Made by a program: the position numbers and the translations under genes. A stretch of 64,000 bases of DNA from Sneathiella sedimenti. GTDB lineage: Bacteria > Pseudomonadota > Alphaproteobacteria > Sneathiellales > Sneathiellaceae. Below are positions 26,177 through 40,241 of this stretch, piece by piece; position 1 is the stretch's first letter, and each line of letters begins with the position of its first letter. The notes beneath the pieces are model-generated. The model made no database searches and was not told the origin of the DNA. It saw nothing but the letters and a program-made list of their open reading frames with translations. Location: positions 372,001 through 436,000 of the forward strand of contig NZ_JAFLNC010000003.1 of the NCBI RefSeq assembly GCF_017313765.1, given 5' to 3'.

Positions 26177-27013
26177 ATGAAGCCATTTCTTGGGTATGTA
26201 GGGGATTGGCTTTCAACAGTAATGCGCCTTTGCGTTCTTCTCCCTCTTGCTGTGCTCCTTACTCCAGATGTTGCCCGTGCCGATATGGCGGTTCCGGCAA
26301 AAGTACTGAAGGTTCCCGGAATCAAGGGGGAAGACAATCGCGTGCGGGTCAGGATCACGGATTATCCGTGGCGCATGATCGGGCGGTTAAACCGCAATGG
26401 CAGTCATTGCACGGGTATTCTTGTCGGGCCGTCATCGGTGCTGACGGCGGCCCATTGCTTCTGGGACAAGCGGCAAAACAAGTGGTCAATCCCAAGTGCA
26501 TTTCATTTTGTTGTTGGCTATGAGAAGGGCGAGGTGAAGGCGCATACAAAAATTGCGAGCTTCGAACTGGCGAATGGCCGGCCACCCACGGTGACAACGA
26601 AAAAGCCGGTCCTGGAAAATGATTGGGCGATTGCGCAGCTGGAAAAGCCATTGGGAAAGCAATTCGGGTTTGCAGCGGTAGAAGACATAAATCTTCTCAA
26701 GATAAGGGAAATTCTCTCCACAGGCTCCGTTATTGTCCAGGCTGGTTATAGCAGGGATATTGCGCATATATTGACGGCGGATGAAGACTGTAAAATCAGT
26801 GGAATCCAACAGAGCAAAATGGGCTTTCTTTTGCGGCACCAGTGCGACGCAACCCAGGGGGATTCAGGCTCCCCTCTCTTTTTATATGATGGCAAAAATT
26901 ATTCCCTCATAGGCATTCACGTCGCCACATTTTCAAGCTCGAATGGGGTAACAGAGGGAATAGCTGTTTCTCTTGATATGTTTGGTGATCGTGTTTCTCA
27001 ACTGCCAAAGTAG
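26177..27013 (+). CDS. Secreted trypsin-like (S1 family) serine protease
   Basis: The protein starts MKPFLGYVGDWL and has a hydrophobic segment LCVLLPLAVLLTPDVARA that looks like a Sec signal peptide with cleavage after ARA; an in-frame ATG at 26222 would give a more compact signal. The S1 catalytic triad is present: VLTAAHCFW (His), ENDWAIAQLEKPL (Asp) and ATQGDSGSPLF (Ser), with Cys pairs CTG...HC and CDATQGDSG. It should act in the periplasm or outside. It precedes the acidic 105-residue protein and the Lap-type locus, but any functional link is inference. Confidence 0.88.
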   Translation: MKPFLGYVGDWLSTVMRLCVLLPLAVLLTPDVARADMAVPAKVLKVPGIKGEDNRVRVRITDYPWRMIGRLNRNGSHCTGILVGPSSVLTAAHCFWDKRQNKWSIPSAFHFVVGYEKGEVKAHTKIASFELANGRPPTVTTKKPVLENDWAIAQLEKPLGKQFGFAAVEDINLLKIREILSTGSVIVQAGYSRDIAHILTADEDCKISGIQQSKMGFLLRHQCDATQGDSGSPLFLYDGKNYSLIGIHVATFSSSNGVTEGIAVSLDMFGDRVSQLPK

Positions 27014-27165
27014 CAAAAAAAATAAAATTTTATGAAAATACGGCGAAATTTATTGTAATCTACCTCAAATGGGGGATGAATCACGTCTTACCAATGGATA
27101 GAGTAGCTGGGAAATAACCAAGGAATACAATATCCAGCCTTGGGGACGCAGGGGTTGTAGCGATC

Positions 27166-27483
27166 ATGAGTGACAAACAAACAGATGAAATCCAGCTGGT
27201 CGAAGATGATCAGGCTGTGTCCGAAAATAGCGAGACAGCGGATCTGGCGTTTCTAGAGCTGGACGAAAGTGGCGTTGTCGACCTTGATGCTTTGTTTGAT
27301 GCATTGAATATCGCGGCAGAAGAGAATAGCGGCTCTATGGACTTTGTCGAAGGCGGTGGCGGAGATTTCGGGACTCTGAAAATCTCAGGCACCGACCTAA
27401 TCCTAGGCAATGCCGCATCCGATGATTTGCCGGATGCGACTGATTTACTCTTGAAAAGCAATATTGTCTCTGACGAGTCGTAA
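27166..27483 (+). CDS. Small acidic hypothetical protein (105 aa)
   Basis: I do not recognise this protein. It is strongly acidic, with no Arg and only three Lys, many Asp/Glu, a central Gly run (VEGGGGDFG) and two LD-rich segments (AFLELDESGVVDLDALFDAL). It has no signal peptide or membrane segment. It lies 150 bp after the serine protease gene and ends 6 bp before the convergent HD-GYP gene of the Lap-type locus. An acidic, Lys/Arg-poor composition ending in a polar tail is compatible with a type I secretion substrate or a small partner, but nothing proves this. A possible dyad CCAAGG/CCTTGG lies just upstream (around 27119-27142). Confidence 0.65.
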   Translation: MSDKQTDEIQLVEDDQAVSENSETADLAFLELDESGVVDLDALFDALNIAAEENSGSMDFVEGGGGDFGTLKISGTDLILGNAASDDLPDATDLLLKSNIVSDES

Positions 27484-27489
27484 AGTCGT

Positions 27490-29553
27490 TTAAGTCTTTT
27501 TGCTTTTCTCGATATTGGCCTTGAAATTGGCACCTATTTCCGTCTCGAAAAAGCGCAACATAGCGTCAACAACCTCCGGATCGTATTTTTCCGGATTGTT
27601 TTTGAACACGCGAAGTGCCTCGTCGACGCTGATGGAATCACGATAGGACCGAGGCGAAATGCGGGCAATCAGGATATCCGCCATCCCGAGAATGCGGGCC
27701 GGCATATCTATTTCATCTCCTGTCAGGCCTCTTGGATAGCCGCTTCCGTCAAGATGCTCGTTAATCTGCGTGACGGCATCAAGGACTTCCTGCTCCACAT
27801 CCGCGTTCGCCAAAATCTTTTCAGCGATCAGAACATGTTTCTGCATCACCTTCTGTTCTTTCTCGGTCAGCCGCACTTCCTTTTCCCTGATTTCACGGGG
27901 AATGGAAATTTTGCCGATCTGTGAAAGATGTGCGCCGGTGTTGATTATTTTAATCACTTCCGGCGGCAGTCCCATCTCTACCGATATGTGATTGCTAAGC
28001 TGTGCCATTCGGACGGAATGATCCGAAAGATAAGGGTCATTAGCCTCCAGCATCTGGGAAAGAACCGTCATGGCTTTACGGTCCATCTCCTCTTTACGGC
28101 GCTGGAACTTCACATAGTCAGTAATGTCACTGCTGACAGTGACAATGCCCAAAAATGCGCCGTCCTCATTGACGAAACGGGATTTGGCAACCCGCAAGAT
28201 CCGTATGCCATCGACCGTTTCAATCTCAACAAAAGCGTTAACCGTCTGCTCCGTTGCAATGGCCTTGCGATCATGCTCGGCAAGTTCACGGGCGGCCTTA
28301 TCGCCGAACAGGTCGCGATCGGTCTTGCCGGGAATTGCCCGAAGCGGATAATCCGCAATACGGGCGAGGGACGGGTTGGCATAGATATATCGTCCCTCGG
28401 GATCGGTCAGGCCGATAAGTTCATCGATCGTATTGTTGATGCTGCCCAGGAGCCGCCGTTGCGCGTTTATCTGGGCGGCAAATTCCTTGTACTGATGGGC
28501 GAGCGCGCGGGCGTTTTGACCTTTAAGGATCAGCCAGATTACTACGAGTATGGTGAAAACAATAATCAGGAAACTGACGGCCAGACCGATCACAAACAGT
28601 GCGTAAGTCCGTAACGGCGCCAGAGCTTCCGAACTTGAAATTTGCTGAAAGACGACGAAGCTCGTGTTCGGGACCAGGGCACCGGATGAGTACAGGCTTT
28701 CCCCATTCTCTCTGGATATTTCCTGAAAGCCGATTGCACCCGGCATAAGCTGCGACTCTTCCTTGGCTGCAATATAGGGAGGCTTCAGAGGAAAAAGCTC
28801 ATAAAATTTGCCGTCTACTTTCTGATATAGCCGTGTCATATCGGGTTGGTTGTTGTAGAGGGGCGCATTCAGCAGCTCAGCAAGGGGTTCTGACGCCGGC
28901 ACAGTGACAAGTAAGACACCAACAGTATCTAATTTGCTACTTCCGGGATCACTTTGGGCCGCGTGAATAGGTAAGATAAAATCAAAAACGAGGCCGGTTT
29001 CGCTTGCCCGGAGCGGCGAGAAGGTGATTTCCGTCTTTTCATATTGCGCCTGAGCAGTCGAACGCTGAGCGTCCGTCAGGGCCGGGGCGTCACCCGAAGC
29101 CAGATAGGCGCGACCATCCTTGCCAATGAGATAGGCCCCGATAAGGCCGGTCTGGTTCACAAAATTCGAAAATGCATTCTGCATATACGGGAGCTGTTCG
29201 CTTAACGACGCTGGTAGCTTCCCACCTCCAACAAGATTAATTTCCGTAGTGAAAAGCTGGAAAAGATCATTGTCCGCAATCCGGTTGGCATTCTCGATTT
29301 CCCCGGCGAGCCAGGTTCCCATCACTTGTGCTTTCCCGGAGGCACTGACGTCCAGCCGCTTTTGTAGCTCTCCAACCATCTCCAGTTTCCGGGACTGGAT
29401 TGCATAATCACAAAGGAAGTATCCCAGGATTGCGAAGACAGCGAGAAAAAGCGCGGCAATTTTCCACGGCGCTTTCACGATTAATCCGCTGTCATTGGGG
29501 GCGCCGTCGGAGAGAAATGTATTAAGGTCGAGCTTTGCCGTCGTGTCAGTCAT
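27490..29553 (-). CDS. Membrane Cache-PAS-HD-GYP protein with degenerate HD site (paired with the Ser-type LapG)
   Basis: A 687-residue membrane signalling protein. A transmembrane segment at about 29-50, a periplasmic Cache-like region 51-320, a second transmembrane segment 323-347, a PAS domain about 370-480 (NTIDELIGLTDPEGRYIYAN) and a C-terminal HD-GYP domain 500-680 can be seen. The HD pair is replaced (HLSQIGK, Ser544-Gln545) and the HHE motif reads INE (597-599), but the GYP triplet (605-607) is kept. Phosphodiesterase activity is therefore doubtful; nucleotide sensing remains possible. The ATG at 29553 has GGGAG upstream and overlaps the stop of the LapG-like gene by 8 bp, so the two are co-translated. 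Confidence 0.88.
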   Translation of the reverse strand: MTDTTAKLDLNTFLSDGAPNDSGLIVKAPWKIAALFLAVFAILGYFLCDYAIQSRKLEMVGELQKRLDVSASGKAQVMGTWLAGEIENANRIADNDLFQLFTTEINLVGGGKLPASLSEQLPYMQNAFSNFVNQTGLIGAYLIGKDGRAYLASGDAPALTDAQRSTAQAQYEKTEITFSPLRASETGLVFDFILPIHAAQSDPGSSKLDTVGVLLVTVPASEPLAELLNAPLYNNQPDMTRLYQKVDGKFYELFPLKPPYIAAKEESQLMPGAIGFQEISRENGESLYSSGALVPNTSFVVFQQISSSEALAPLRTYALFVIGLAVSFLIIVFTILVVIWLILKGQNARALAHQYKEFAAQINAQRRLLGSINNTIDELIGLTDPEGRYIYANPSLARIADYPLRAIPGKTDRDLFGDKAARELAEHDRKAIATEQTVNAFVEIETVDGIRILRVAKSRFVNEDGAFLGIVTVSSDITDYVKFQRRKEEMDRKAMTVLSQMLEANDPYLSDHSVRMAQLSNHISVEMGLPPEVIKIINTGAHLSQIGKISIPREIREKEVRLTEKEQKVMQKHVLIAEKILANADVEQEVLDAVTQINEHLDGSGYPRGLTGDEIDMPARILGMADILIARISPRSYRDSISVDEALRVFKNNPEKYDPEVVDAMLRFFETEIGANFKANIEKSKKT

Positions 29554-30262
29554 TAGTATTACTCCCTGCGGCATCTTGGGCGGTCAGGAAATCAATCGGT
29601 ATATGCGCCCATCTCGTGTTCTCGTTTACGGAATAGAGAGGGACATAATAATTCACGAAGCGTTCTTCCAGAATTGTGTCGTTCAGGCTGTCGAGAACAT
29701 AACGTTTTCCTTGCTGTGAAACACTTAACACCGCATGTACTTTATTGCGCAGCACATCATTCGCAATAACGATCCGCATGGAGTCCGGGTCAAACCCAAG
29801 CTCTTTAAGGCTTATGTATTTCATAACGGCGAAATCCTTTGATCCGCCACCGTTAGACAGAAATTCAAGGGGCGACGCCCAAGGACTTCCGGGGCTGGCT
29901 TCCACGTCGTCGGGAATGTATTTCCAGCCATTGAGGAAGCGGTTAATCTCCTGCATCTGAATACGCTTGGGCGAGCGTTGCAATTCGGCGATCTTTGTGC
30001 GCCACAGGGTCATCTGCTGCGACTGACAATCCTCGATCCGGTCATCACATTTGGACGCTGCATTCGCGAGCAATGGAAAGCTTGCCTTGACCTTGAGCCA
30101 GTGAGGGAGTGCGGCAAGATTATCCGACGAGATTTCGACGAGGCCGAAAAGTCCCTTCTCGGTGACTTCCGCGCGGGCGGAGATGGCGGTCGCCGGGCCA
30201 AGCAGAAAAAGCCCCGCCAGCAAGAGGGCCGTTGTACGCCTGAATATCAACAGTTGTTTCAT
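29546..30262 (-). CDS. LapG-type transglutaminase-like protease homologue with catalytic Cys replaced by Ser
   Basis: A 238-residue periplasmic protein of the bacterial transglutaminase-like cysteine proteinase (BTLCP) family. It has a signal peptide (residues 1-31, ending ISARA). The active-site block reads GGGSKDFAVMKY where the second copy in this window has GDCEDYAIVKY, so the nucleophile is Ser141, not Cys. His176 (VHAVL) and Asp191 (VLDSL) of the triad are kept. It may be a pseudoprotease, a binding partner or an altered hydrolase. It starts within the stop of the HlyD gene and overlaps the HD-GYP gene, forming one operon with the exporter. Confidence 0.88.
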   Translation of the reverse strand: MKQLLIFRRTTALLLAGLFLLGPATAISARAEVTEKGLFGLVEISSDNLAALPHWLKVKASFPLLANAASKCDDRIEDCQSQQMTLWRTKIAELQRSPKRIQMQEINRFLNGWKYIPDDVEASPGSPWASPLEFLSNGGGSKDFAVMKYISLKELGFDPDSMRIVIANDVLRNKVHAVLSVSQQGKRYVLDSLNDTILEERFVNYYVPLYSVNENTRWAHIPIDFLTAQDAAGSNTND

Positions 30263-31590
30263 CAGCGTTCCCTCAAGGCTGTATCCCGCGTTTTCAGAAT
30301 AGGTTTCAGAATATAATCGAGCACCGTTTTCTGTCCTGTCAGGATATCGACAGAGGCAACCATACCCGGAATTATCGGGTATGAATTCTCCCCGCGTTTC
30401 AGGAAGTTCTGATCCGTACGGACAATAATCTGGTAGTAGCTTTCGCCGGTTTTTTCATCGACGATCGTATCCGCGCTGATCCGCTCCAGCCGGGCCGGTA
30501 ATCCGCCATATATAGAATAGTCATAGGCCGTGATCTTGACCGTCGCTTCCTGACCAGGCCTTAGAAAGGCTATGTCAGCGGGGCGGATATTTGCTTCCAC
30601 CAGGAGCGAGTCATCGATAGGCACGATTTCAATAATATCCTGACCCGGCTTGACGACGCCGCCAATGGTCTGAATTTTCACGTCCTTCACTTCGCCGGTT
30701 ACGGGAGATCGGACATCCGTACGGGCAACGCGGTCCTTGACCCCCAAAATCGCCTGTCGGGCGGCCTCATATTCCGCGCGAGTCTGGCTGAGCTCCTGTG
30801 ATGCCATGCTTTTGAAGCTGAGTATTTTTTCCTCAATTCTCTGATTGGCTTCCTTAAGGGCGCCTTCAACACGTGGCTTGGAAAGCTCCGAGGCGGAAAT
30901 CTGCCCTCTCAGTTCATTGATTTCACGACGCAATTTAAGGGAATCGACTTTTGGGACGATCCCTTTTTTGACGAGCGGTGCCGTGATTTCCATTTCCTCG
31001 TTGGCCAGGTCAAGGCTTGCGCGCAATTGCCGTAGCCGCCCGTTAATCTCTGCAATTTCCTGGCTGCGCTGCTGTGCCTGCTGACGCAGGATCTGGATCT
31101 GTGATTGCAGTTCCGCCTGACGGGCGTTGAACAGATTTTGCTCGCGGACGGAAATGTCTTTACGCTCCGCCAGAAGCTCGGCGGGGAAGGTAAGCGGCTC
31201 TCCTGTCGCCTCGGCCTCGAGCCGGGAAATGCGCCCCATCAGGTTAAGATAATTTGATTCAATTTCACCGGCGCGCGAGGCGTACCCGGTATCATCAATC
31301 CGCAGCAGGACCTGGCCCTTTTCGACAATATCGCCTTCATGGACCAGCAATTCCCGCAAAATACCACCTTCTAGGTTCTGGATTATCTGCACCTGGCTGG
31401 AGGGGATAACCTTTCCGTCGCCGCGGGTAACTTCATCGAGAACGGCGTTTTTCGCCCAGATGAACCCAACAACGAAAAAGGCGATAATACCAAATAGTAA
31501 CAGGAAAGAACGCGGATGAGGGCCCTGCACCTTGGCCGCCACGACATCCGACGCAAAATCCGTGTCATCCCATTTCAAGTTTGTTGTCAT
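30262..31590 (-). CDS. Type I secretion HlyD-family periplasmic adaptor (LapC-like)
   Basis: A 442-residue membrane-fusion protein with a short cytoplasmic N-terminus, one transmembrane segment at about residues 28-48, a biotinyl-lipoyl-like domain (VIPSSQVQIIQNLEGGILRE region), a long coiled coil (about 90-280, rich in Gln, Arg and Glu) and a C-terminal beta-domain containing RSPVTGEVKDVKIQTIGGVV. It connects the ABC exporter to TolC. GGGAG lies upstream of the ATG. It follows the exporter gene by 2 bp and is followed by the Ser-type LapG gene with one base of overlap. Confidence 0.93.
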   Translation of the reverse strand: MTTNLKWDDTDFASDVVAAKVQGPHPRSFLLLFGIIAFFVVGFIWAKNAVLDEVTRGDGKVIPSSQVQIIQNLEGGILRELLVHEGDIVEKGQVLLRIDDTGYASRAGEIESNYLNLMGRISRLEAEATGEPLTFPAELLAERKDISVREQNLFNARQAELQSQIQILRQQAQQRSQEIAEINGRLRQLRASLDLANEEMEITAPLVKKGIVPKVDSLKLRREINELRGQISASELSKPRVEGALKEANQRIEEKILSFKSMASQELSQTRAEYEAARQAILGVKDRVARTDVRSPVTGEVKDVKIQTIGGVVKPGQDIIEIVPIDDSLLVEANIRPADIAFLRPGQEATVKITAYDYSIYGGLPARLERISADTIVDEKTGESYYQIIVRTDQNFLKRGENSYPIIPGMVASVDILTGQKTVLDYILKPILKTRDTALRER

Positions 31591-31592
31591 TG

Positions 31593-33977
31593 TCAGTCTC
31601 CCGGTCCGTTCCGCTGCGGCTTCGAAACACTTGCCGAGACTGTTTTAGAGGACGAATTTCCGGTCTGCCCCAGTTTCAGAATTTCATCCCGCGGTCCATC
31701 GGCTGCGATCCTGCCATTGCCGAGAACAATGATCCGGTCCACCAGTGAGAAGAGGGAGGTGCGGTGCGTCACAAGAAGTACGGTCTTTCCCTGTATATAG
31801 TCTTGTAGGCGGCTTATCAGACGACGTTCGGAATTGATGTCCATTGCGCTGGTCGGTTCATCAAGCATCAGGATGGGCGGATTGGGAAGGAACGCCCGCG
31901 CGAGACCTATAGTCTGCCGTTGCCCACCGGACATGGTTGCTCCCTTTTCGCCGACATGCAGGTCATATCCATGTGGGTGCGTTGATATGAAATCATGAAC
32001 GCCGGAGAGCTTCGCAGCGTTCAGGATCATCTCATCATCAGCTTGCGGATGGCCCATTGTGATATTCTGGCGAACGGTGGCCTGAAACAGGGTGATGTCC
32101 TGCATGACACTGCCAATACTCCGGCGGATATCAGACGGATCGATCTGCCGGATATCCGTGCCATCAATAAGAACGGCTCCTTCATCCGGTTCATATAGAT
32201 TTATGAGCAGCCGTGAAATCGTTGTCTTTCCTGATCCGACAGGCCCGATTATTCCGACCTTTTCGCCGGCCCGGATCTTGAAGGACACATTATTGAGGGC
32301 GGGGATGTCCGTTCCCGGATACTTGAAGGTGACATCCTTGAACTCGATGTCCCCCTGGATATTCGGGCGGCTGAGTTGGCGCTTTTCCGCGCCCCGTTCG
32401 ACCGGTAGGGACATGATGTGATTAAGTCCCTTCAGGGCGACCATGGCTTGATTGAGGCGGGTAAGCAGGCCGGCAATCTGGCCAAGCGGCGCCATAGTCC
32501 GACCGGTCAGAATGGTGCAGGCAATCAGGGCGCCAACCGTAATGGTCGAATCCGGCTCACCCATCAGAATGACGCCATAGACAACGACACCAACGGTTAC
32601 AAGCTGCATGGCAGCTGCGGAAAGATTGATGCCAAGACCGGCAAAGAAACGGGCAGCTACACTTGTTTGCGCGGTCTTTCCGACAAAGCGTTCCCATTCC
32701 TTCTGCATATGTCCCTCAATTCCCATGCTTTTAACGGTATCGAGGGCAGAAATAGTTTCAACGATAACCCCGTGCTTCTGAGCCGCCTCTTCTGAGGTTT
32801 TTGAAACGGCGCGACGCATGGGCCACTGGAGGAACAGGCCAATAAGCAGGACGACCGGTACGGCAACCGCGGGAATGATAAAGAGCGGACCGCCAATCAG
32901 GTATATGATGAACAGGAAAATCGCGAGAAAGGGCAGGTCAACGAGAGCCGTCACCGTCACGGAGGTAAAGAAATCCCGTAGGGTTTCGAATTCGCGCAGA
33001 TGATTGGCAAATGCACCCGCGGAGGCGGGGCGTGCCTTTACCTGCAAATTAAGTACCTGCTCGAATATACGGCTCGAGAGGAGAACATCCGCCCGTTTGC
33101 CCGCATTGTCGACGAAATAGGCCCGCAATGATTTGAGTATCAGGTCAAAGGCAATCACGGTAATGACGCCTATTGCCAGCACCCACAATGTCTCAATCGC
33201 GCGGTTGGGGACAACCCGGTCATAGACATTCATAATGAAAAGTGGGCTTGCCAGCGCGAAACTGTTGATCAGAAACGCAGCGATTATGACCTGAAGATAG
33301 GTCGGCCAGAACTGCCACATTGTCCCCCAAAACCAGGAGCCGGGCCGGTCCATCAGTTTTTCGTCTTTATCTACCCGGTACTTAAAACTTGGGCGGGTCA
33401 GGATGGCGTAACCCGCGTAGGCAGCTTCCAGATCCGATAATGGCAGGCTGTCGGAGCCTTCCCCGGTTTCCGGGAAAATGACCTTCGCATTTCCGCCTTC
33501 CCGTGACAGTAGAATGCAGGCCCGTCGATCATTCAACAGAATGACGCAGGGCAGAACAACATCGGGTATCTTATCAAGCTTGCGGTTTGTGATGCGTGCA
33601 CTGATACCAACACGTTCCGCCGCCCGAATAAACAGTGATGGTGTCAGCTTGTTATCTTCCAGGGGAAGTCCATAAATCAATGCATCCGGGGTTCGCGGAT
33701 CATCGAAAAGCTTTGTCAGGGCTGATAGACAACCAAGAAGGGGGTCCTGATCGGCACGGGTGATTTCAGAAAGACTGACTTGCCAGTTTCCTTTGCTTTC
33801 AGCTTTCGCCCGGGCGACAGGCTCAGGGTTGTCACTCAGGTTTGCAGTAGCAGGTTTAGCTTGTATGTCTGTTTTCAAATTAGTGTCTCTTGTCTTTTGA
33901 TCACCACTGTTGGTGACGAATAGGTCGTCCGCCGCCTTGGTCGTGAGTGGTAAGGGATTGCGTGACTTCTCACTCAC
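31593..33977 (-). CDS. Type I secretion ABC transporter, permease/ATPase with C39-like domain (LapB-like)
   Basis: A 794-residue exporter. Residues 1-85 are polar; a C39-peptidase-like domain follows (around 90-210, DPLLGCLSAL), probably non-proteolytic as in LapB/HlyB-type exporters. A membrane domain with about six segments spans 225-500. The nucleotide-binding domain has GPVGSGKTTISRLL, MSGGQRQTIGLARA, ILMLDEPTSAMD and H-loop LLVTHRTSL. The frame begins with GTG at 33977, preceded by AGGACAGG. It heads the operon exporter-HlyD-LapG homologue-HD-GYP. No obvious large adhesin substrate is encoded in the window. Confidence 0.94.
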   Translation of the reverse strand: MSEKSRNPLPLTTKAADDLFVTNSGDQKTRDTNLKTDIQAKPATANLSDNPEPVARAKAESKGNWQVSLSEITRADQDPLLGCLSALTKLFDDPRTPDALIYGLPLEDNKLTPSLFIRAAERVGISARITNRKLDKIPDVVLPCVILLNDRRACILLSREGGNAKVIFPETGEGSDSLPLSDLEAAYAGYAILTRPSFKYRVDKDEKLMDRPGSWFWGTMWQFWPTYLQVIIAAFLINSFALASPLFIMNVYDRVVPNRAIETLWVLAIGVITVIAFDLILKSLRAYFVDNAGKRADVLLSSRIFEQVLNLQVKARPASAGAFANHLREFETLRDFFTSVTVTALVDLPFLAIFLFIIYLIGGPLFIIPAVAVPVVLLIGLFLQWPMRRAVSKTSEEAAQKHGVIVETISALDTVKSMGIEGHMQKEWERFVGKTAQTSVAARFFAGLGINLSAAAMQLVTVGVVVYGVILMGEPDSTITVGALIACTILTGRTMAPLGQIAGLLTRLNQAMVALKGLNHIMSLPVERGAEKRQLSRPNIQGDIEFKDVTFKYPGTDIPALNNVSFKIRAGEKVGIIGPVGSGKTTISRLLINLYEPDEGAVLIDGTDIRQIDPSDIRRSIGSVMQDITLFQATVRQNITMGHPQADDEMILNAAKLSGVHDFISTHPHGYDLHVGEKGATMSGGQRQTIGLARAFLPNPPILMLDEPTSAMDINSERRLISRLQDYIQGKTVLLVTHRTSLFSLVDRIIVLGNGRIAADGPRDEILKLGQTGNSSSKTVSASVSKPQRNGPGD

Positions 33978-34770
33978 CGACCTGTCCTCATCATTTGTCT
34001 ATTTCCAGCCGGACCAATAAGTTTATTGTGTCTGGGGCATCTATCTCTCGTCCGGGAAACGGGACTGCAGCGTTCCCATTTGTTTTTAACCATTACCATA
34101 TCCACGCTTTCCCGTTTGACTTTCGCCCGCAATTTCGGCGATTTCATGTTGCGATCGGGAATTGATTGCAGCCGAGCAGCATTCCCCTGATTTTCGTCAC
34201 ACTACTTGTTTAGTGCATTCGCACGTTTGATTGCGCTAGACGGATCAATTGCCTAATCTGCTATTCAACGCTTATTTTGTGAAAATGCGGTTAACATATT
34301 GGCTAAAAAGTAGTTCTCAAAAGTAAGTAAGTCTGGCTTGTTTGCGTGATTCAACAATTTGTTACTCCCCAAGGCTGAAAGCAGCGCTGCGCCAAATATA
34401 TAAGTATAATTGCGGGGTTTCTGCCGAATATTCAACAAAAATTAACCATAAATGGCGGAGAACTCAGGATATCGATGTGTCTTGCATATTTTGCAGCTTA
34501 GGGCACTTGCGTTCGTGAGGGGGGTTAATAGTGGCCGCTAACGGGGGGAATGCGCGCTGTCGGCTTGTTGTAATTATAACACAGGCTGTTGTGCCGCCCG
34601 CGAAATTTTAAGTGTTCTCATCTATATAGAGTTGATTGTCAACTGGAAGAGAGCTTAGATTACCAGCATATTAAAAAGAGTTTTGGATGGATGTTTTGCT
34701 CTGGCATTACGCAATCAGGCGGGTTCAAAGTTTTCGTCGAAATGCAAAACAGACACAGTGGGAGAGGGGC
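33978..34770 (-). other. Long AT-rich intergenic region between divergent exporter and TolC genes
   Basis: This 793-bp gap has no frame with coding character on either strand. It must contain promoters for the minus-strand exporter operon and the plus-strand TolC gene. The middle and right part is AT-rich with several runs (e.g. around 34390-34460), has an AAGTAAGTAAGT repeat near 34322 and two adjacent palindromes at 34621-34643. I see no riboswitch or RNA gene pattern. Its size suggests complex regulation. The feature applies to both strands. Confidence 0.5.
34621..34643. promoter_or_regulatory. Adjacent palindromes upstream of TolC gene, candidate operator
   Basis: TCTATATAGA (34621-34630) is a perfect 10-bp palindrome and is directly followed by GTTGA-TTG-TCAAC (34631-34643), a perfect inverted repeat with a 3-bp spacer. 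They lie about 130 bp before the TolC start in the long divergent intergenic region. The cognate regulator is unknown; the LuxR-type protein at 39177 is a candidate by proximity only. Confidence 0.3.
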
Positions 34771-36114
34771 ATGAAGCTTAGAAACAGTGCTGGAAAGTCA
34801 ATGAATGTGCTTTCCGCCAGTATTCTAACGGCTGTTTTCGGAAGTTTTCTCGCGGTGGGGGCCGCACAAGCCGAAACATTAACGGAAGCTGTTCAACAGA
34901 CAGTTTCGACCTATCCAGAAATTGCCGAGGCATCGGCCAATCGCCGTGCAATCGATCAGGAATTGAAGCAGGCCGAGGGACTTTATCTCCCGTCGCTCGA
35001 TCTTGAAGCCGGGATCGGTTACGAATGGACTGACACGGTCACCATTGATAACGAGGATTTGCGGCGCACGGAATCGAGCCTTCTGCTGGTGCAGACACTT
35101 TATGATGGCGGGTTTCGGAGTGCAGAAGTAGATAGGCAGGGCAGCCGGGTTGACAGTGCCGCTTATCGGGTGCGGGAACGTGCTGAGGCCATTGCCCTTG
35201 ACGCGGTGCGTTCGTATCTTGATACACTCCGCAGCCTCGAGATTGTTGAACTGGCGAAGGAAAATGTTGAAAAGCATCGCCGGACCCTTAACGAAATACA
35301 GGATCGGGTGAGAGCCGGGCAAAGCGGTATCGGCGATGACCAACAGGCACTTGCGCGTCTAGCTGCGGCAGAAGATACGCTTGTCGAAACCATGCGGGCG
35401 CTGGACGATGCGGAAATCACGTATCAGAGAGTTGTGGGGGTACAGCCCACCAATCTGGTTCTTCCTGAATTCAGCGATGGCGTTCTTCCGGACAATATCG
35501 ACGACATCGTCGCAATTGCACTTGATAGCAATCCCGATATCAAATTCGCTTCTTCAGATATAAAGACGTCTGACGCGGAAATCCGGGCAACACAGGCCAG
35601 CTATTATCCGACGGTCAATCTTGAAGTCGGCGCCTCAGCGGATAATAATCTCGACGGCGTTGAAGGTCATAATGACGATTTCCTCGCGATGGTTCGGTTG
35701 CGCTACAACCTTTACAGAGGGGGTATCGACGAGGGCCGTGAGAAGGAAGCTGTCGCGCGCAAAGCAGAAACAGAACAACGCAAGCGCCGGTTCGAACGGC
35801 TTGTAGAAGAAGAGGTTCGCCGCAGTTGGAGCTCTCTGGCCCGTTCAGAGGCTCGTGCGGAAGTCCTCGCAGCGGCTGTTGTCGCCAACACCGAGGTTGC
35901 ATCGACTTACAAACAGGAATTTGAAATCGGTCAACGGGATTTGCTGGACCTGCTCGATGCGGACAATGAGCTTTTTAATTCGCGCACGTCGCTGGTGACA
36001 GTCCAGTATTCTGTCAGATTTGCAAAATATCGCCTGCTCGCCACCATGGGCCGACTGAATTCGACGCTAGGTATAGACCTTCCGGCAGAAGCTACGCCAA
36101 TGGAAAAAGGCTGA
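34771..36114 (+). CDS. TolC-family outer membrane efflux protein (LapE-like)
   Basis: A 447-residue outer-membrane channel of type I secretion. The ATG at 34771 has GGAGAGGGGC upstream and is followed by a signal peptide ending VGAAQA; the longer frame from 34687 lacks such signals. The protein shows the TolC pattern of two repeats, with TLTEAVQQTVSTYPEIAEA at the mature N-terminus, LVQTLYDGGFRSAEVDRQ, and in the second half VRLRYNLYRGGIDEGREKEA and a final GQRDLLDLLDADNELFNSR. It is divergent from the exporter operon and ends in a strong terminator. Confidence 0.94.
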   Translation: MKLRNSAGKSMNVLSASILTAVFGSFLAVGAAQAETLTEAVQQTVSTYPEIAEASANRRAIDQELKQAEGLYLPSLDLEAGIGYEWTDTVTIDNEDLRRTESSLLLVQTLYDGGFRSAEVDRQGSRVDSAAYRVRERAEAIALDAVRSYLDTLRSLEIVELAKENVEKHRRTLNEIQDRVRAGQSGIGDDQQALARLAAAEDTLVETMRALDDAEITYQRVVGVQPTNLVLPEFSDGVLPDNIDDIVAIALDSNPDIKFASSDIKTSDAEIRATQASYYPTVNLEVGASADNNLDGVEGHNDDFLAMVRLRYNLYRGGIDEGREKEAVARKAETEQRKRRFERLVEEEVRRSWSSLARSEARAEVLAAAVVANTEVASTYKQEFEIGQRDLLDLLDADNELFNSRTSLVTVQYSVRFAKYRLLATMGRLNSTLGIDLPAEATPMEKG

Positions 36115-36136
36115 CACCTCTTTAAGAATTAAATGA

Positions 36137-36170
36137 AAGCCGCGCCTGAAGCCAGAGCGCGGCTTTTTTA
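36137..36170 (+). terminator. Rho-independent terminator after TolC gene
   Basis: The inverted repeat GCCGCGC (36139-36145) / GCGCGGC (36157-36163), extended by AA/TT to nine pairs, has an 11-base loop and is followed by seven T, with five to seven A on the left side. It ends the TolC transcript and may also stop the convergent LapG transcript. Confidence 0.9.
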
Positions 36171-36181
36171 TTCTTGCAGGG

Positions 36182-36844
36182 TTATCGCTTGTGACGCCAC
36201 CAGCCCATTTCGTTGACAGAATAGATTGGACGGTAGTGGCGAATGCGGGTTGCTTCGACAACCTGGCCAATCTGGTTGTCGAGCACTAGGTTCCGGCCTT
36301 CGTACTTTACGACCAGTATGGCATGTGCGACGCCGAGATTAATGTCCTGCAATACAACAATTTTCATATCTTCGGCGGGCCATCCGAGAGCGCGCAACGT
36401 AAAGTATTTGACGATCGCGTAGTCTTCGCAATCACCAAATCGGGCGAAAAACTCTTTCGGGATTTCCCAGTAATCGCGGACACCCCAATTGACTGGATCG
36501 AGAATATAGCGGAAGAGGTTCATATGCCGGTTGACTTTTTCAAGCTGCTCTTCTTTCGGCAGGAGGCGCCATTCCTCGATCAGGGCGAGCCATTTTTGAT
36601 GAGCGCATCGATTATATTTTCCTGACACGCAATCGCCTGGTCTGTCCTTGTAGGTTGCAAGAACCTTTCGCCATTTGGGAAAGGGCTTGAGCCCGGAATA
36701 GGGGGTTGCTTTATAGCCGAACAGGTCGCCTGCCTTTGCCTCTGCGAAAGAAGGCATTGCAACAACGGAGCAGGCAAGAATAAGCGCCACGAAAATCGCG
36801 GTAAATCGGGATCTTGCTCCAGTCATCGGGTTGGTTTTTGTCAT
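36182..36844 (-). CDS. LapG-type periplasmic transglutaminase-like cysteine protease
   Basis: A 220-residue BTLCP protein with a signal peptide (about 1-36, ending in SFAEA). The intact triad is visible: Cys139 in GDCEDYAIVKY, His174 in VAHAILVV and Asp189 in LVLDNQ; Cys72 and Cys80 could form a disulfide. LapG proteases cut the N-terminal retention region of giant type I-secreted adhesins and are inhibited through the c-di-GMP receptor LapD. Here no LapD gene is present; instead the gene is divergent (185 bp) from a degenerate HD-GYP membrane protein gene. It converges with TolC. Confidence 0.92.
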   Translation of the reverse strand: MTKTNPMTGARSRFTAIFVALILACSVVAMPSFAEAKAGDLFGYKATPYSGLKPFPKWRKVLATYKDRPGDCVSGKYNRCAHQKWLALIEEWRLLPKEEQLEKVNRHMNLFRYILDPVNWGVRDYWEIPKEFFARFGDCEDYAIVKYFTLRALGWPAEDMKIVVLQDINLGVAHAILVVKYEGRNLVLDNQIGQVVEATRIRHYRPIYSVNEMGWWRHKR

Positions 36845-37029
36845 CTATTCTAAAAGCTTCCTGCGAAGGGTGACATTATGGACAATAAATCGTTAACAAA
36901 GACTGAGCAGGACATCTAATGTCGTTGCACAGTTGTGTCATTTTTGCGTAAGTTTAAGTCGGTGATTTACCTATCTTAAAGAGTTTCCAGGCATTCTGCC
37001 TCTAAGTGGAATATATAACCGGGGCATTT

Positions 37030-39165
37030 ATGTCGGATAATCAAATAGACGGTTCAGGAAAAAAAAGCACTTACAAAGCGCTATCAATTGGCGTGCTGCT
37101 GCTTGTCGCCGTCATGATTGTCGGCATTTGGGGAACCTTTAAGTTCGTTGAGGAGCAGCGGTTGCGGGACCTCCGGAACTGGGAGGTTCGTCTCGGCATT
37201 GTTGCTGATAGCCGCGCGGCAAGCGTAGACGACTGGTTGCGCAAGCAGGAACAGGCAATCGGAACTCTCGCCACGAATGCATCCTTGCAGGTATATCTGA
37301 CCCAGCTGGTTATCGAGACCGCGGAAAATGGCAATTCCATCGCGGAGGTGCCCGAGGCGGGTTACCTTATCAACTTGCTGAATAACCAGGCTGTTATCAG
37401 CGGATTCTGGGAACCGGAAGAGCCCCAAATCCGGGCGAATGTGGCGCGACCGGGCCGGGCTGGCATAGGATTGACGGACGCAACCGGGAAACTTCTGGTT
37501 TCTAGCGGCAACATGCCCCCGATGAACCCGACAATACGGGCCGCTATGGCGAAGGCCGGGGATGGTGAGCCGGCACTTGTTGACTTGTACGAGGGAATAA
37601 ATGGTGACCCGACAATGGGGTTTGTCTGGCCGATATATGCCGTACAGGATGAAGGTAGCCCCAAGGACATAATCGGATATGTCATTGGCCTCAGGACGGT
37701 GGAAACATCCCTGTTCCCCCTTTTATTCCAGCCGGGTGATACCTTGCAGTCCGCTGAAAATTATCTTGTCCGCCGGGATGGCAATCTTGTGCAGTATATT
37801 TCCCCGCTTGCGGACGGCACCCTGGCGCTCGCGCGCAAGTTAAGTGCGCAGAACGACCTGGCGGCGGCATTCGTGATCGAGAATCCGGGCGGATTTGCAA
37901 TTGCATCTAATTATCTCGGAAGCAGGGTTCTGGTGACAGGTCGTGCGCTGACGACCGCGCCCTGGTTCCTTGTTCGGACGGTTTCGGAGAAGGAAGCGTT
38001 GGCCGAGACGGATCAGCGTCTTTCAACGATGCTCGGGATCTTCTTGTTATTGATATTTGCGGTTGCGGGAACGGTCGTTGCTGTATGGCGGCATGGCACG
38101 TCCATTCGTGCTGCTGAACTCGCCGTGCGTTATCGGGAAATGGCGGAACAGTTAAAAGAGCGAAGTGAATTTCTTAAAATCGTGACGGATCAGCAACCGA
38201 CGTCCATTGCGGTTTTCGATGCAGAAGACAAATACACCTTCGCCAACAGTGTTGCCGCAGAGGGCCTGGAAATATCGCAAGATGAGATGATTGGAAAGAA
38301 GGCAGCGAGCGTTCTGGGGCCGGAGCAGGCCAGGGAAATCATCGAAATGACGAACCTTGTACGCCTTGATTATGAGCCGCGTTCGTCAATTAGCCGCCTG
38401 AAGGCCTCTGATGCGGGAGAGGCCGACCGGGTGATTAAATCTGATTTTGTCCCATTGCGGTCAACGCGGGTGAACAGCAAGGAAGTTCTCACTGTTTTCC
38501 AGGATATTTCTGAAGTCGTGATCGCGCAGGAACGCCGCGAGGCTGTGTTGCGGGATCTGGTTTCCACACTGGTGGCCTTTGTTGACCGCCGCGATCCGTA
38601 TTCGGCTGACCAGTCCCGCCGGGTTGCGATAGTCGCGGCGGCAATCGCCCAGGAAATGGGCGCATCGGAAGATCTGGTGCGGACAGTCGATATCGCGGGC
38701 AATCTCATGAACATCGGCAAGATACTCGTTCCACCGGAGCTTCTGACCAAGACGAAAAACCTGACCAAGAAAGAGATGGAGATTATCCGCAACAGCCTGT
38801 TTGCCAGTGCGGACCTGTTGGAAGATGTTGAGTTTGACCTGCCGGTTGCAAACACACTCCGTCAATTGCAGGAAAATTTTGATGGGAGCGGTCAGCCAAA
38901 CGGCTTGGTAGGCACGGAGATCAGTGAGTCAGCCCGGATTATCGCTGTGGCAAACGCCTTCGTTGGAATGGTTAGCCCGCGTGCTTACAGGAGTGCCCTC
39001 AGCTTCAGCGCGGCGGTAAAATACTTGCTGGAAGATGCCGATGTGCGGTTTGACCGGCGTATGGTGAGCGCGCTGATTAATTATCTGGAAAACCGCGGCG
39101 GACGCGAAAACTGGAAATATTTCTCTGAATACAAAGATGCGGATCCCGAGGAAAGCGGGACGTAA
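37030..39165 (+). CDS. Membrane Cache-PAS-HD-GYP protein with fully degenerate HD-GYP domain (paired with the Cys-type LapG)
   Basis: A 711-residue paralogue of the protein at 27490-29553. A transmembrane segment at about 20-42, a periplasmic Cache-like region to about 330, a second transmembrane segment around 335-355, a PAS domain about 385-490 and a C-terminal HD-GYP-like domain are seen. All expected metal ligands are lost: the first His reads Gln (DQSRRVA), HD reads MN (560-561), HH reads LQ (613-614), GYP reads GQP (621-623) and the last Asp is Asn (VANAF). It cannot be a normal c-di-GMP phosphodiesterase and is more likely a receptor or scaffold. The ATG at 37030 has GGGG upstream and lies divergent from the LapG gene. 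Confidence 0.88.
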   Translation: MSDNQIDGSGKKSTYKALSIGVLLLVAVMIVGIWGTFKFVEEQRLRDLRNWEVRLGIVADSRAASVDDWLRKQEQAIGTLATNASLQVYLTQLVIETAENGNSIAEVPEAGYLINLLNNQAVISGFWEPEEPQIRANVARPGRAGIGLTDATGKLLVSSGNMPPMNPTIRAAMAKAGDGEPALVDLYEGINGDPTMGFVWPIYAVQDEGSPKDIIGYVIGLRTVETSLFPLLFQPGDTLQSAENYLVRRDGNLVQYISPLADGTLALARKLSAQNDLAAAFVIENPGGFAIASNYLGSRVLVTGRALTTAPWFLVRTVSEKEALAETDQRLSTMLGIFLLLIFAVAGTVVAVWRHGTSIRAAELAVRYREMAEQLKERSEFLKIVTDQQPTSIAVFDAEDKYTFANSVAAEGLEISQDEMIGKKAASVLGPEQAREIIEMTNLVRLDYEPRSSISRLKASDAGEADRVIKSDFVPLRSTRVNSKEVLTVFQDISEVVIAQERREAVLRDLVSTLVAFVDRRDPYSADQSRRVAIVAAAIAQEMGASEDLVRTVDIAGNLMNIGKILVPPELLTKTKNLTKKEMEIIRNSLFASADLLEDVEFDLPVANTLRQLQENFDGSGQPNGLVGTEISESARIIAVANAFVGMVSPRAYRSALSFSAAVKYLLEDADVRFDRRMVSALINYLENRGGRENWKYFSEYKDADPEESGT

Positions 39166-39176
39166 ACCCAAATTCC

Positions 39177-40241
39177 CTAAAGGAGGCTGGTCGCCTGAAG
39201 GGCCGCGGGGCCGGTCAGGATGAGCTTAACGACTTCGCTTTGCCGGCTGGTGTCGGTTTTTCTGAATATTTGACGGAGTTGGGAGCGAACCGTATGCATG
39301 CTGACCCCCCATTCTTCAGCGAGGTCATCCAGCTTGTAGCCATTTGTCAGCCCGAGAGCCAGCCGCCCTTCTGCCGGTGTCAGTCCATAAAGTTTGCAAA
39401 TTGAGTCAACGGACAGGTCAACCGGTTCGGCGGGATCGGACACGAAAAGAACCGCCCCCTTGCCTGCCACACCGGTCCCGATTGGGGCGACCATGACATT
39501 TAACGGGTAGTCACTTTCCATCCGGGTCAGTGAAATTGCAAAATCACCTTCCGATTTATTCTCGTCACTTGGGGACAGGGTGTCGGCCAACAGCTTGGCG
39601 AGGGCCCGGCTTTCGCCCGGCAGCGTTGCACGGCATACCCGATCAGAGCCAACCACCAGACCATCACCCTGTTCGAGATAACGTTTCGCCTTGCCATTGA
39701 AAAACAGGATTTTTGAATCGGCGGTTACCAGAATGACACCAATGGGAAGCCGGTTCAGCACCGCGGTCGCTGAATCGAGAAGTGGTGCGGTTTCCGCGCT
39801 TCGCTGGTGCCCCTGATGACGTTGTATGGCGTTGAGCAGGCTTCGCGAAATACCATCAGTCGTGAGCTGACTTTTAATGAGATAGTCTTGGGCTCCCAGA
39901 CGAATGGCATCACGACCTACCTTTTCGTCGTCGCCGGTAAGTACGACAACCGGTATCAGCGGAATTTTCTCACCGAGGAGGGACACCGCATTGATCCGGT
40001 CTTCCGTGCTTTCTGTCAGATCGAGGATAATCACCTCGCCTTGCTGGTCACGGCCAGTGTTTACAAAGCTGTCAAGGCAGGCGACATGCTCGAATGAAAA
40101 CTGTGCATTCGACGCGTTGGACAACAGCCAACTTAGCTGTTGGGCATCCTCTTCCTTTTGTCCGATAAAGCGAACAGTGGCGGTAGAATTTTCGTCCATC
40201 GAATACGGTTTTCCGACTTGATTGGTTGGTTTCCTTGACAT
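39177..40241 (-). CDS. LuxR-family regulator with receiver and PAS-like domains
   Basis: A protein of about 354 residues. The N-terminal part is receiver-like, with an Asp in VIILDLTEST, a Thr in VVLTGDDEK and a Lys in YLIKSQL, matching the phosphoacceptor and switch positions. A PAS-like middle part (LPIGVILVTADSKILFFNG) and a C-terminal LuxR helix-turn-helix (LTPAEGRLALGLTNGYKLDDLAEEWGVS, then TVRSQLRQIFRKT; the first is given in part) follow. ATG 40241 is a reasonable start; ATG 40199 is also possible and would begin just before the receiver domain. It is convergent to the HD-GYP gene (12 bp apart), so it may belong functionally to the Lap-type locus. Confidence 0.82.
   Translation of the reverse strand: MSRKPTNQVGKPYSMDENSTATVRFIGQKEEDAQQLSWLLSNASNAQFSFEHVACLDSFVNTGRDQQGEVIILDLTESTEDRINAVSLLGEKIPLIPVVVLTGDDEKVGRDAIRLGAQDYLIKSQLTTDGISRSLLNAIQRHQGHQRSAETAPLLDSATAVLNRLPIGVILVTADSKILFFNGKAKRYLEQGDGLVVGSDRVCRATLPGESRALAKLLADTLSPSDENKSEGDFAISLTRMESDYPLNVMVAPIGTGVAGKGAVLFVSDPAEPVDLSVDSICKLYGLTPAEGRLALGLTNGYKLDDLAEEWGVSMHTVRSQLRQIFRKTDTSRQSEVVKLILTGPAALQATSLL

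Follow-up and report, generated by a model that had tools for sequence, protein, structure and literature searches.

The window analysed here is a 64,000-nucleotide stretch of the Sneathiella sedimenti genome (contig NZ_JAFLNC010000003.1, positions 372,001 to 436,000, forward strand). Between window positions 26177 and 40241 it carries two pairs of genes, each encoding a membrane receptor with a degenerate HD-GYP domain and a protein of LapG fold, together with the genes of a type I secretion system. LapG-B, the partner of receptor B, has an intact active site, and LapG-A, the partner of receptor A, lacks the catalytic cysteine. Judged from the sequences, we favour, with some reserve, the reading as a doubled adhesin-release system of the DvhD/DvhG type, in which receptor B and LapG-B would form a cutting arm and receptor A and LapG-A a non-cutting one. 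In Desulfovibrio, DvhD, a dCache-PAS protein with a degenerate HD-GYP domain, controls the LapG-type protease DvhG in a cyclic di-GMP (c-di-GMP)-dependent manner (PMC13090378, cited here and below from the parts available). The receptor principle is thus already known. As far as the open-licence literature was searched, novelty lies in the doubling of the locus, in the second receptor clade and in a non-catalytic LapG that is conserved; there, we found no paper on LapG with a pseudoprotease, and none of the titles listed links LapG to HD-GYP in Alphaproteobacteria. This class may already be listed in PMC13090378, which shows the distribution by class in a figure and draws on 78 homologues for a supplementary table.

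The host is a marine bacterium of the genus Sneathiella (Alphaproteobacteria), and all genes of the locus are present by open reading frames (ORFs) and Pfam search. An earlier note on this DNA had listed two LapG genes, two HD-GYP membrane protein genes, an exporter, HlyD and TolC, and each of these was found at its coordinates.

Receptors A and B and their kinship with DvhD

Receptor A (27490–29553, minus strand) and receptor B (37030–39165, plus strand) have the domain order dCache, PAS, degenerate HD-GYP. Both match HD_5 and PAS_4 in Pfam; the Cache domain stays below the Pfam cut-off of 45 bits by sequence (21.6 and 26.6 bits). The best match to a solved structure is DvhD (9rc0) for both receptors (A 1.4e-46; B 1.6e-43), with HD-GYP phosphodiesterases behind. 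The DvhD dCache chain 9rc2 is matched by the receptor A sequence (1.3e-17); the receptor B sequence gave no match to this chain in the search of solved structures. A structural model was used for receptor B (predicted local distance difference test, pLDDT, 84.1; predicted template modelling score, pTM, 0.48), and because of the pTM value it served for the domains and not for their arrangement. For each of the three parts compared in this model, HD-GYP, PAS/HD-GYP and dCache, DvhD ranks first (Z = 27.8, 27.0 and 21.1). The root mean square deviation is 3.7 for PAS/HD-GYP on 9rc0 (296 aligned) and 3.3 for dCache on 9rc2 (246 aligned), the next dCache entries having Z values of 18.8 or less.

The metal ligands of the HD-GYP domain are replaced in both receptors. 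In place of the HD dyad, receptor A has SQ, which DvhD also has, and receptor B has MN; the second histidine motif is likewise replaced. Together with the DvhD matches, this supports the assignment of both receptors as degenerate HD-GYP proteins of the DvhD type and bears out the earlier note, which had called them degenerate. In a tree computed from the PAS/HD-GYP part of 46 hand-picked sequences, the B sequences are separated by a 100/100 branch and DvhD falls outside their clade. It is nearest to A-type sequences (best L048, at 42%); a canonical HD-GYP sequence lies on the same side, the root of the tree being unknown.

The locus resembles the LapD/LapG/LapA system of Pseudomonas in the LapG fold, the intact triad of LapG-B, the type I exporter and the candidate retention-type adhesins. 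It differs in that no LapD was found and in that the receptor domains are unrelated to those of LapD. The contig of the window gave no profile match to GGDEF or EAL, in agreement with the earlier note, which had seen no GGDEF-EAL gene at the locus, and receptors A and B gave no Pfam match to GGDEF, EAL or LapD_MoxY_N. That note had also named a LapD homologue elsewhere in the genome as evidence against its proposal. The genome was searched and contains no LapD_MoxY_N match over the cut-off, the sole PF16448 match having an E-value of 0.655; none of the 14 controls passed the cut-off in this search either, and its sensitivity rests on the search of 289 genomes of the class, in which 4 of 289 pass. 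The genome has 10 GGDEF matches, nine of them over the cut-off. Its three GGDEF-EAL proteins were rejected as LapD candidates, as a hydropathy window predicts no membrane segment in them. A fourth EAL protein was rejected as well: its two N-terminal membrane segments are only about 16 residues apart, and it has no GGDEF match.

The idea that an HD-GYP protein takes the place of LapD therefore holds in so far as the receptors are degenerate, of the DvhD type, and no LapD was found. As a new and 'distinct' architecture it does not stand, since it has already been published, with c-di-GMP-dependent LapG control, for DvhD/DvhG of Desulfovibrio (Nitratidesulfovibrio) vulgaris (PMC13090378; 9RBZ, 9RC0, 9RC2). 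That system shares with ours the dCache-PAS-HD-GYP order with a dead metal site, a LapG-type protease and a type I exporter adjoining the receptor, and two adhesins. Unlike there, the window has two receptor–LapG pairs, a receptor from a separate clade (B, with MN) and a LapG-A without nucleophile; the c-di-GMP contacts are only partly kept, and the adhesins are encoded elsewhere in the genome.

Among the residues of DvhD that contact c-di-GMP (DvhD numbering), Y523, P567, L577, R650 and Y652 are kept in both window receptors, together with Y621 in receptor A and M646 in receptor B. R569, K582 and E668, the base-reading residue, are lost in both. The contacts were also counted in 24 A and 112 B sequences (24 and 101 distinct), ORFs of 500 residues or fewer being left out. 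These counts weigh against control by c-di-GMP: Glu668 and Lys582 are absent from most sequences of both groups, Arg replaces Met646 in 20 of the 24 A sequences, and only seven of the 112 B sequences keep Tyr621. Because several contacts are not kept, the ligand of the receptors may differ from c-di-GMP. They might bind another nucleotide, or their main role might be to detect, by way of dCache, a small molecule in the periplasm and to pass the signal inwards, LapG then not being under c-di-GMP control. The partial loss of contacts would fit such a reading, as would the fact that dCache domains are commonly ligand-binding (PMC13090378). We nevertheless consider it rather unlikely, since the closest relative of solved structure, DvhD, switches in a c-di-GMP-dependent manner and is reported to control DvhG (PMC13090378), and since Pfam detects no output domain in the receptors besides the dead HD-GYP.

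Recurrence of the receptor–LapG pair in Alphaproteobacteria

A context search for LapG genes next to HD-GYP genes, as suggested in the earlier note, revealed that the pairing recurs. A LapG gene lies within 5 kb of 38 of the 48 receptor matches with at least 350 bits (42 genomes), the 38 pairs coming from 33 genomes. At most four candidates per genome were scored, so these receptor counts are lower bounds. The 79 listed matches of 90–150 bits, mostly to the HD-GYP domain alone, served as controls; only one of them has LapG within 5 kb, and chance proximity of receptor and LapG was rejected on this comparison. At intermediate scores, LapG was found within 5 kb for one of six matches (200–350 bits) and for three of 15 (150–200 bits). 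For the remaining 10 of the 48 strong matches there is no LapG within this distance. Pairs of HD-GYP receptor and LapG are frequent in the sampled Alphaproteobacteria (at least 33 of 289 genomes). LapD_MoxY_N is rare (five of 289, none of them among the 42 genomes with strong receptor matches), although the LapG family is well represented, with matches in 80 of the 289.

Named loci were collected with receptor B as the best 80 of 142 relatives. A LapG-profile ORF is present in 65 of the 80, and in 11 of the 15 loci without one the receptor lies less than 1 kb from the end of the stretch. Two layouts predominate. In the A type, exporter, HlyD, LapG and receptor genes share one orientation; in the B type, LapG and receptor genes are divergent. 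Two pairs were classed as convergent, and for some tandem pairs the stretch contains no exporter. Many B-type pairs elsewhere likewise have no exporter in the fetched stretch; in the window and its congeners, LapG and the type I exporter adjoin the receptor. One locus speaks against our reading: in L056 (G167) the immediate neighbour of a LapG-like gene is an HD-GYP gene that retains the HD motif and falls outside the degenerate receptor family.

One of the 10 strong matches without LapG within 5 kb is L083 (G067): here the LapG gene next to a B-type receptor is broken into two frames, with Arg at the Cys position, perhaps through decay of the gene or an error of assembly. No LapG was detectable by Pfam in G301 (L159), where a 33-bit ORF without the motif lies beside the receptor; this Pfam search covered 19 of 20 entries, L116 being left out.

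LapG-A, a LapG-fold protein without catalytic cysteine

LapG-B (36182–36844, minus strand) has an intact Cys-His-Asp triad with the DxE calcium motif and matches Peptidase_C93 with 68.7 bits. LapG-A (29546–30262, minus strand) matches the same family with 37.4 bits; both scores are above the Pfam cut-off of 27 bits, and both proteins have signal-like N-termini. The earlier note had spoken of two LapG-type proteases. The family holds for both, but 'protease' overstates the case for LapG-A, which has no catalytic cysteine, and the conserved non-catalytic protein had been missed. The active-site stretch is GDCEDYA in LapG-B and GGSKDFA in LapG-A, with His and Asp of the triad present in both. LapG-A thus has Gly-Ser-Lys where DvhG has the essential Asp-Cys-Glu; the DvhG variants C317A and D316A/E318A are both inactive (PMC13090378).

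We surveyed 122 LapG ORFs from two overlapping sets (112 distinct sequences). The cysteine is present in 93 of the 97 ORFs nearest the B profile, the exceptions being two pieces of one broken gene, one gene cut by a contig end and one weak match without the motif. The 25 ORFs nearest the A profile have Ser in 16 cases, Cys in six, Asp in one and other states in two (Rhodospira). All 16 LapG-A proteins of Sneathiellales, each with a distinct sequence, carry Ser for the catalytic Cys, and an intact LapG-B is found in each of these 16 loci. The calcium motif of LapG-A is kept as DSE in part of the group and reads GSK, GSR, RSR or SSV in the relatives of the window. A structural model of LapG-A (pLDDT 88.3) matches LapG 4fgq (E = 1.4e-12; TM 0.74 by target length). 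The median ratio of non-synonymous to synonymous substitution (dN/dS), computed for six genomes from pairs with dS between 0 and 3 only, is 0.088 for LapG-A (nine of 15 pairs usable) compared with 0.080 for LapG-B (11 of 15). LapG-A is under purifying selection. The loss of the cutting residue together with the conservation across the group points to a regulatory dead enzyme, and LapG-A, going by its residues, is probably not a protease.

Alternatively, LapG-A could still be an enzyme that uses Ser as nucleophile in a Ser-His-Asp triad, possibly on a new substrate. The purifying selection would agree with this, and conservation of the triad partners in the readable Ser sequences (His in 14 of 15, Asp in all 15) counts against our reading of a dead enzyme. 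We hold residual catalysis to be quite unlikely, however: the C192S variant of the related Caulobacter protease HvyA is non-functional (PMC4241560, figure legend), the calcium-motif residues that DvhG needs are lost in the subclade of the window, and in one species (L097) the His is replaced by Gln. We consider it very improbable that LapG-A is functionless and decaying, left over from an earlier exporter-linked pair that LapG-B has replaced. The loss of the active site is indeed graded, from DSED in part of the genus to GSKD or GSRD in the window's subclade and to complete erasure in Rhodospira. However, 16 loci of Sneathiellales contain a readable ORF with LapG-A profile (truncated at a contig end in one), its dN/dS is as given above next to that of LapG-B, and the gene order is conserved.

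A tree of 40 hand-picked LapG sequences splits into the same A and B groups as the receptors, with group A on one side of a 100/97 branch. By parsimony one change from active to inactive suffices, 19 of the 36 inner branches being open. The inactive forms vary (Ser; Asp in G180; erased in Rhodospira), but we do not claim independent losses, because of these open branches and because of the length, 5.22, of the branch that carries the Rhodospira sequences. In both Rhodospira trueperi and an uncultured Rhodospira, the LapG linked to the exporter lacks an active site, and a single intact LapG is found elsewhere. In these two (L131, L150) a receptor B lies nearby without a LapG of its own in the stretch, the intact LapG being that of L201 and L202. 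A second pair does not force the loss, since G148 has the intact Cys in both LapG-A and LapG-B (L048, L049). G180 contains two receptor–LapG pairs of group A (L051, L052), one LapG with Asp for Cys and the other with Cys.

Candidate adhesins, proposed mechanism and neighbouring genes

Searched as a DNA pattern, the ending IVxDE[S] followed by a stop codon occurs three times in the genome, whereas its reversed control does not occur. The matches are two adhesin-like proteins of 1373 and 880 residues encoded elsewhere in the genome and a 105-residue protein of the locus (27166–27483, plus strand), which ends in IVSDES and is a stand-alone relative of the adhesin C-terminal region. As far as their sequences tell, the two large adhesins are likely substrates of the locus. 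A looser pattern gave 55 matches in 14 genomes; because its reversed control also matches (0 to 4 per genome and strand), it was used for candidates only. From these matches 18 stretches were picked by eye, several with adhesins lacking the N-terminus; L222, from the present genome, does not look like an adhesin and was rejected as such.

With a profile of 19 adhesin C-termini (L222 left out), the 105-residue protein and its 13 homologues score 23.5–38.1 bits (14 of 14), the best of 2798 scored shuffles reaching 14.4 bits. The shared ending is partly a matter of selection, because 17 of the 19 adhesins had been picked for a DES-like ending. The stretch L.ALFD.L.IA, common to the small protein family and the adhesin C-termini, was not selected for. 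The 105-residue protein occurs in 14 Sneathiellales loci; it is probably either a small substrate of type I secretion or a secretion signal that stands alone.

All 11 adhesins of the window's subclade whose N-terminus lies within the sequence obtained, including the two of this genome, contain I[NS]P[EQ][AS]G after the N-terminal domain, followed by GGGAxF. Two other Sneathiellales carry PAAG at this place of their adhesins, the region PxAG...GGGAxF being common to both sets. In subclade adhesins L205 and L207–L214 the PAAG position is occupied by PEAG, PQAG or PESG; this is the same subclade that has the changed LapG-A calcium motif. Three observations on the adhesins weigh against our reading. 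The conserved subclade site differs from [T/A/P]AAG of the known LapG sites (PMC13090378). Adhesin 2, here and in two relatives, has a further PAAG about 80 residues on, which is not found in all relatives. Of the two adhesins, one is matched by the retention_LapA profile, with 40 bits at a cut-off of 50, and the other is not. With P[EQ]AG in both adhesins and PAAG also in adhesin 2, we are unsure of the real cut site.

LapG-B might instead act on a different envelope component, the adhesins then not being substrates. A precedent is HvyA of Caulobacter, which acts on the capsule: alphaproteobacterial BTLCP proteins can act beyond adhesin release (PMC4241560, available parts). HvyA resembles LapG-B as an alphaproteobacterial BTLCP with a Cys-His-Asp triad and a target other than a LapD-controlled adhesin. 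It differs in that its gene lies in a capsule export locus and its control is mainly by cell-cycle abundance; HD-GYP does not occur in the available main text of that paper. The unusual adhesin site would also suit a different target. Yet the pair adjoins a type I exporter in Sneathiella, and the site region shares PxAG...GGGAxF with the two Sneathiellales adhesins that carry PAAG there. A target other than the adhesins thus appears quite improbable to us.

In the doubled system that we favour, receptor B would bind a cyclic dinucleotide, most likely c-di-GMP, in the cytoplasm and restrain LapG-B from the periplasm. By analogy with DvhD, the dead HD-GYP domain would read the nucleotide, the signal would pass across the membrane, and dCache would restrain LapG. 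When the ligand falls, LapG-B would cut the adhesins past their N-terminal retention part and so free them. Receptor A and LapG-A would form a second, non-cutting companion arm tied to the exporter, perhaps a shield. As its fold is kept and selected, yet the nucleophile and, in the window's subclade, also the calcium ligands are lost, LapG-A most likely acts by binding. Under the control of receptor A it could shield an adhesin from LapG-B or compete for a receptor. We propose only tentatively that LapG-A is a pseudoprotease serving as a nucleotide-gated shield, which receptor A would hold or free in response to c-di-GMP or a related nucleotide. Free LapG-A would then sit on the retention part of an adhesin, or on an exporter-anchored adhesin, and block LapG-B. 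If this is true, adhesin release would be set by two opposed receptor–LapG pairs, one cutting and one protecting. The locus would represent a natural pseudoenzyme within an adhesin-release switch. A LapG predicted to bind without cutting may also provide a handle on the mechanism by which DvhD restrains DvhG, which was termed hitherto unknown (PMC13090378, figure legend).

The LapG-A gene overlaps that of receptor A by eight bases when receptor A starts at the second ATG (29553), a start that we infer; the longest ORF begins at 29574 (27490–29574). It is followed towards higher coordinates by genes for an HlyD-type membrane fusion protein (30262–31590, minus strand; Pfam HlyD_3 2e-20) and the type I secretion ABC exporter (31593–33977, minus strand; ABC_tran 2.6e-32). 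The N-terminal domain of the exporter has a weak C39-like match under the Pfam cut-off (Peptidase_C39 4.6e-4). A TolC-type outer membrane channel (34687–36114, plus strand; OEP 3.2e-46) precedes LapG-B, from which receptor B is divergent.

The locus is flanked by the gene for a trypsin-like serine protease with signal-like N-terminus (26177–27013, plus strand; Trypsin 4.2e-16), whose position is the same in all three congeners; in L047 a relative of this gene also adjoins exporter, LapG and receptor genes. At the other end lies a response-regulator-like gene (39177–40241, minus strand) with a weak match to a LuxR-type helix-turn-helix, its Pfam matches being below the cut-off. It adjoins receptor B in the three congeners and in the named Sneathiella loci. 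The gene order of the whole locus is identical in the three congeners first fetched, and in named Sneathiella loci with a long enough stretch it is kept from the 105-residue protein gene or receptor A through the regulator gene. The nearest named records are from Sneathiella, with 91% identity across the whole of receptor B.

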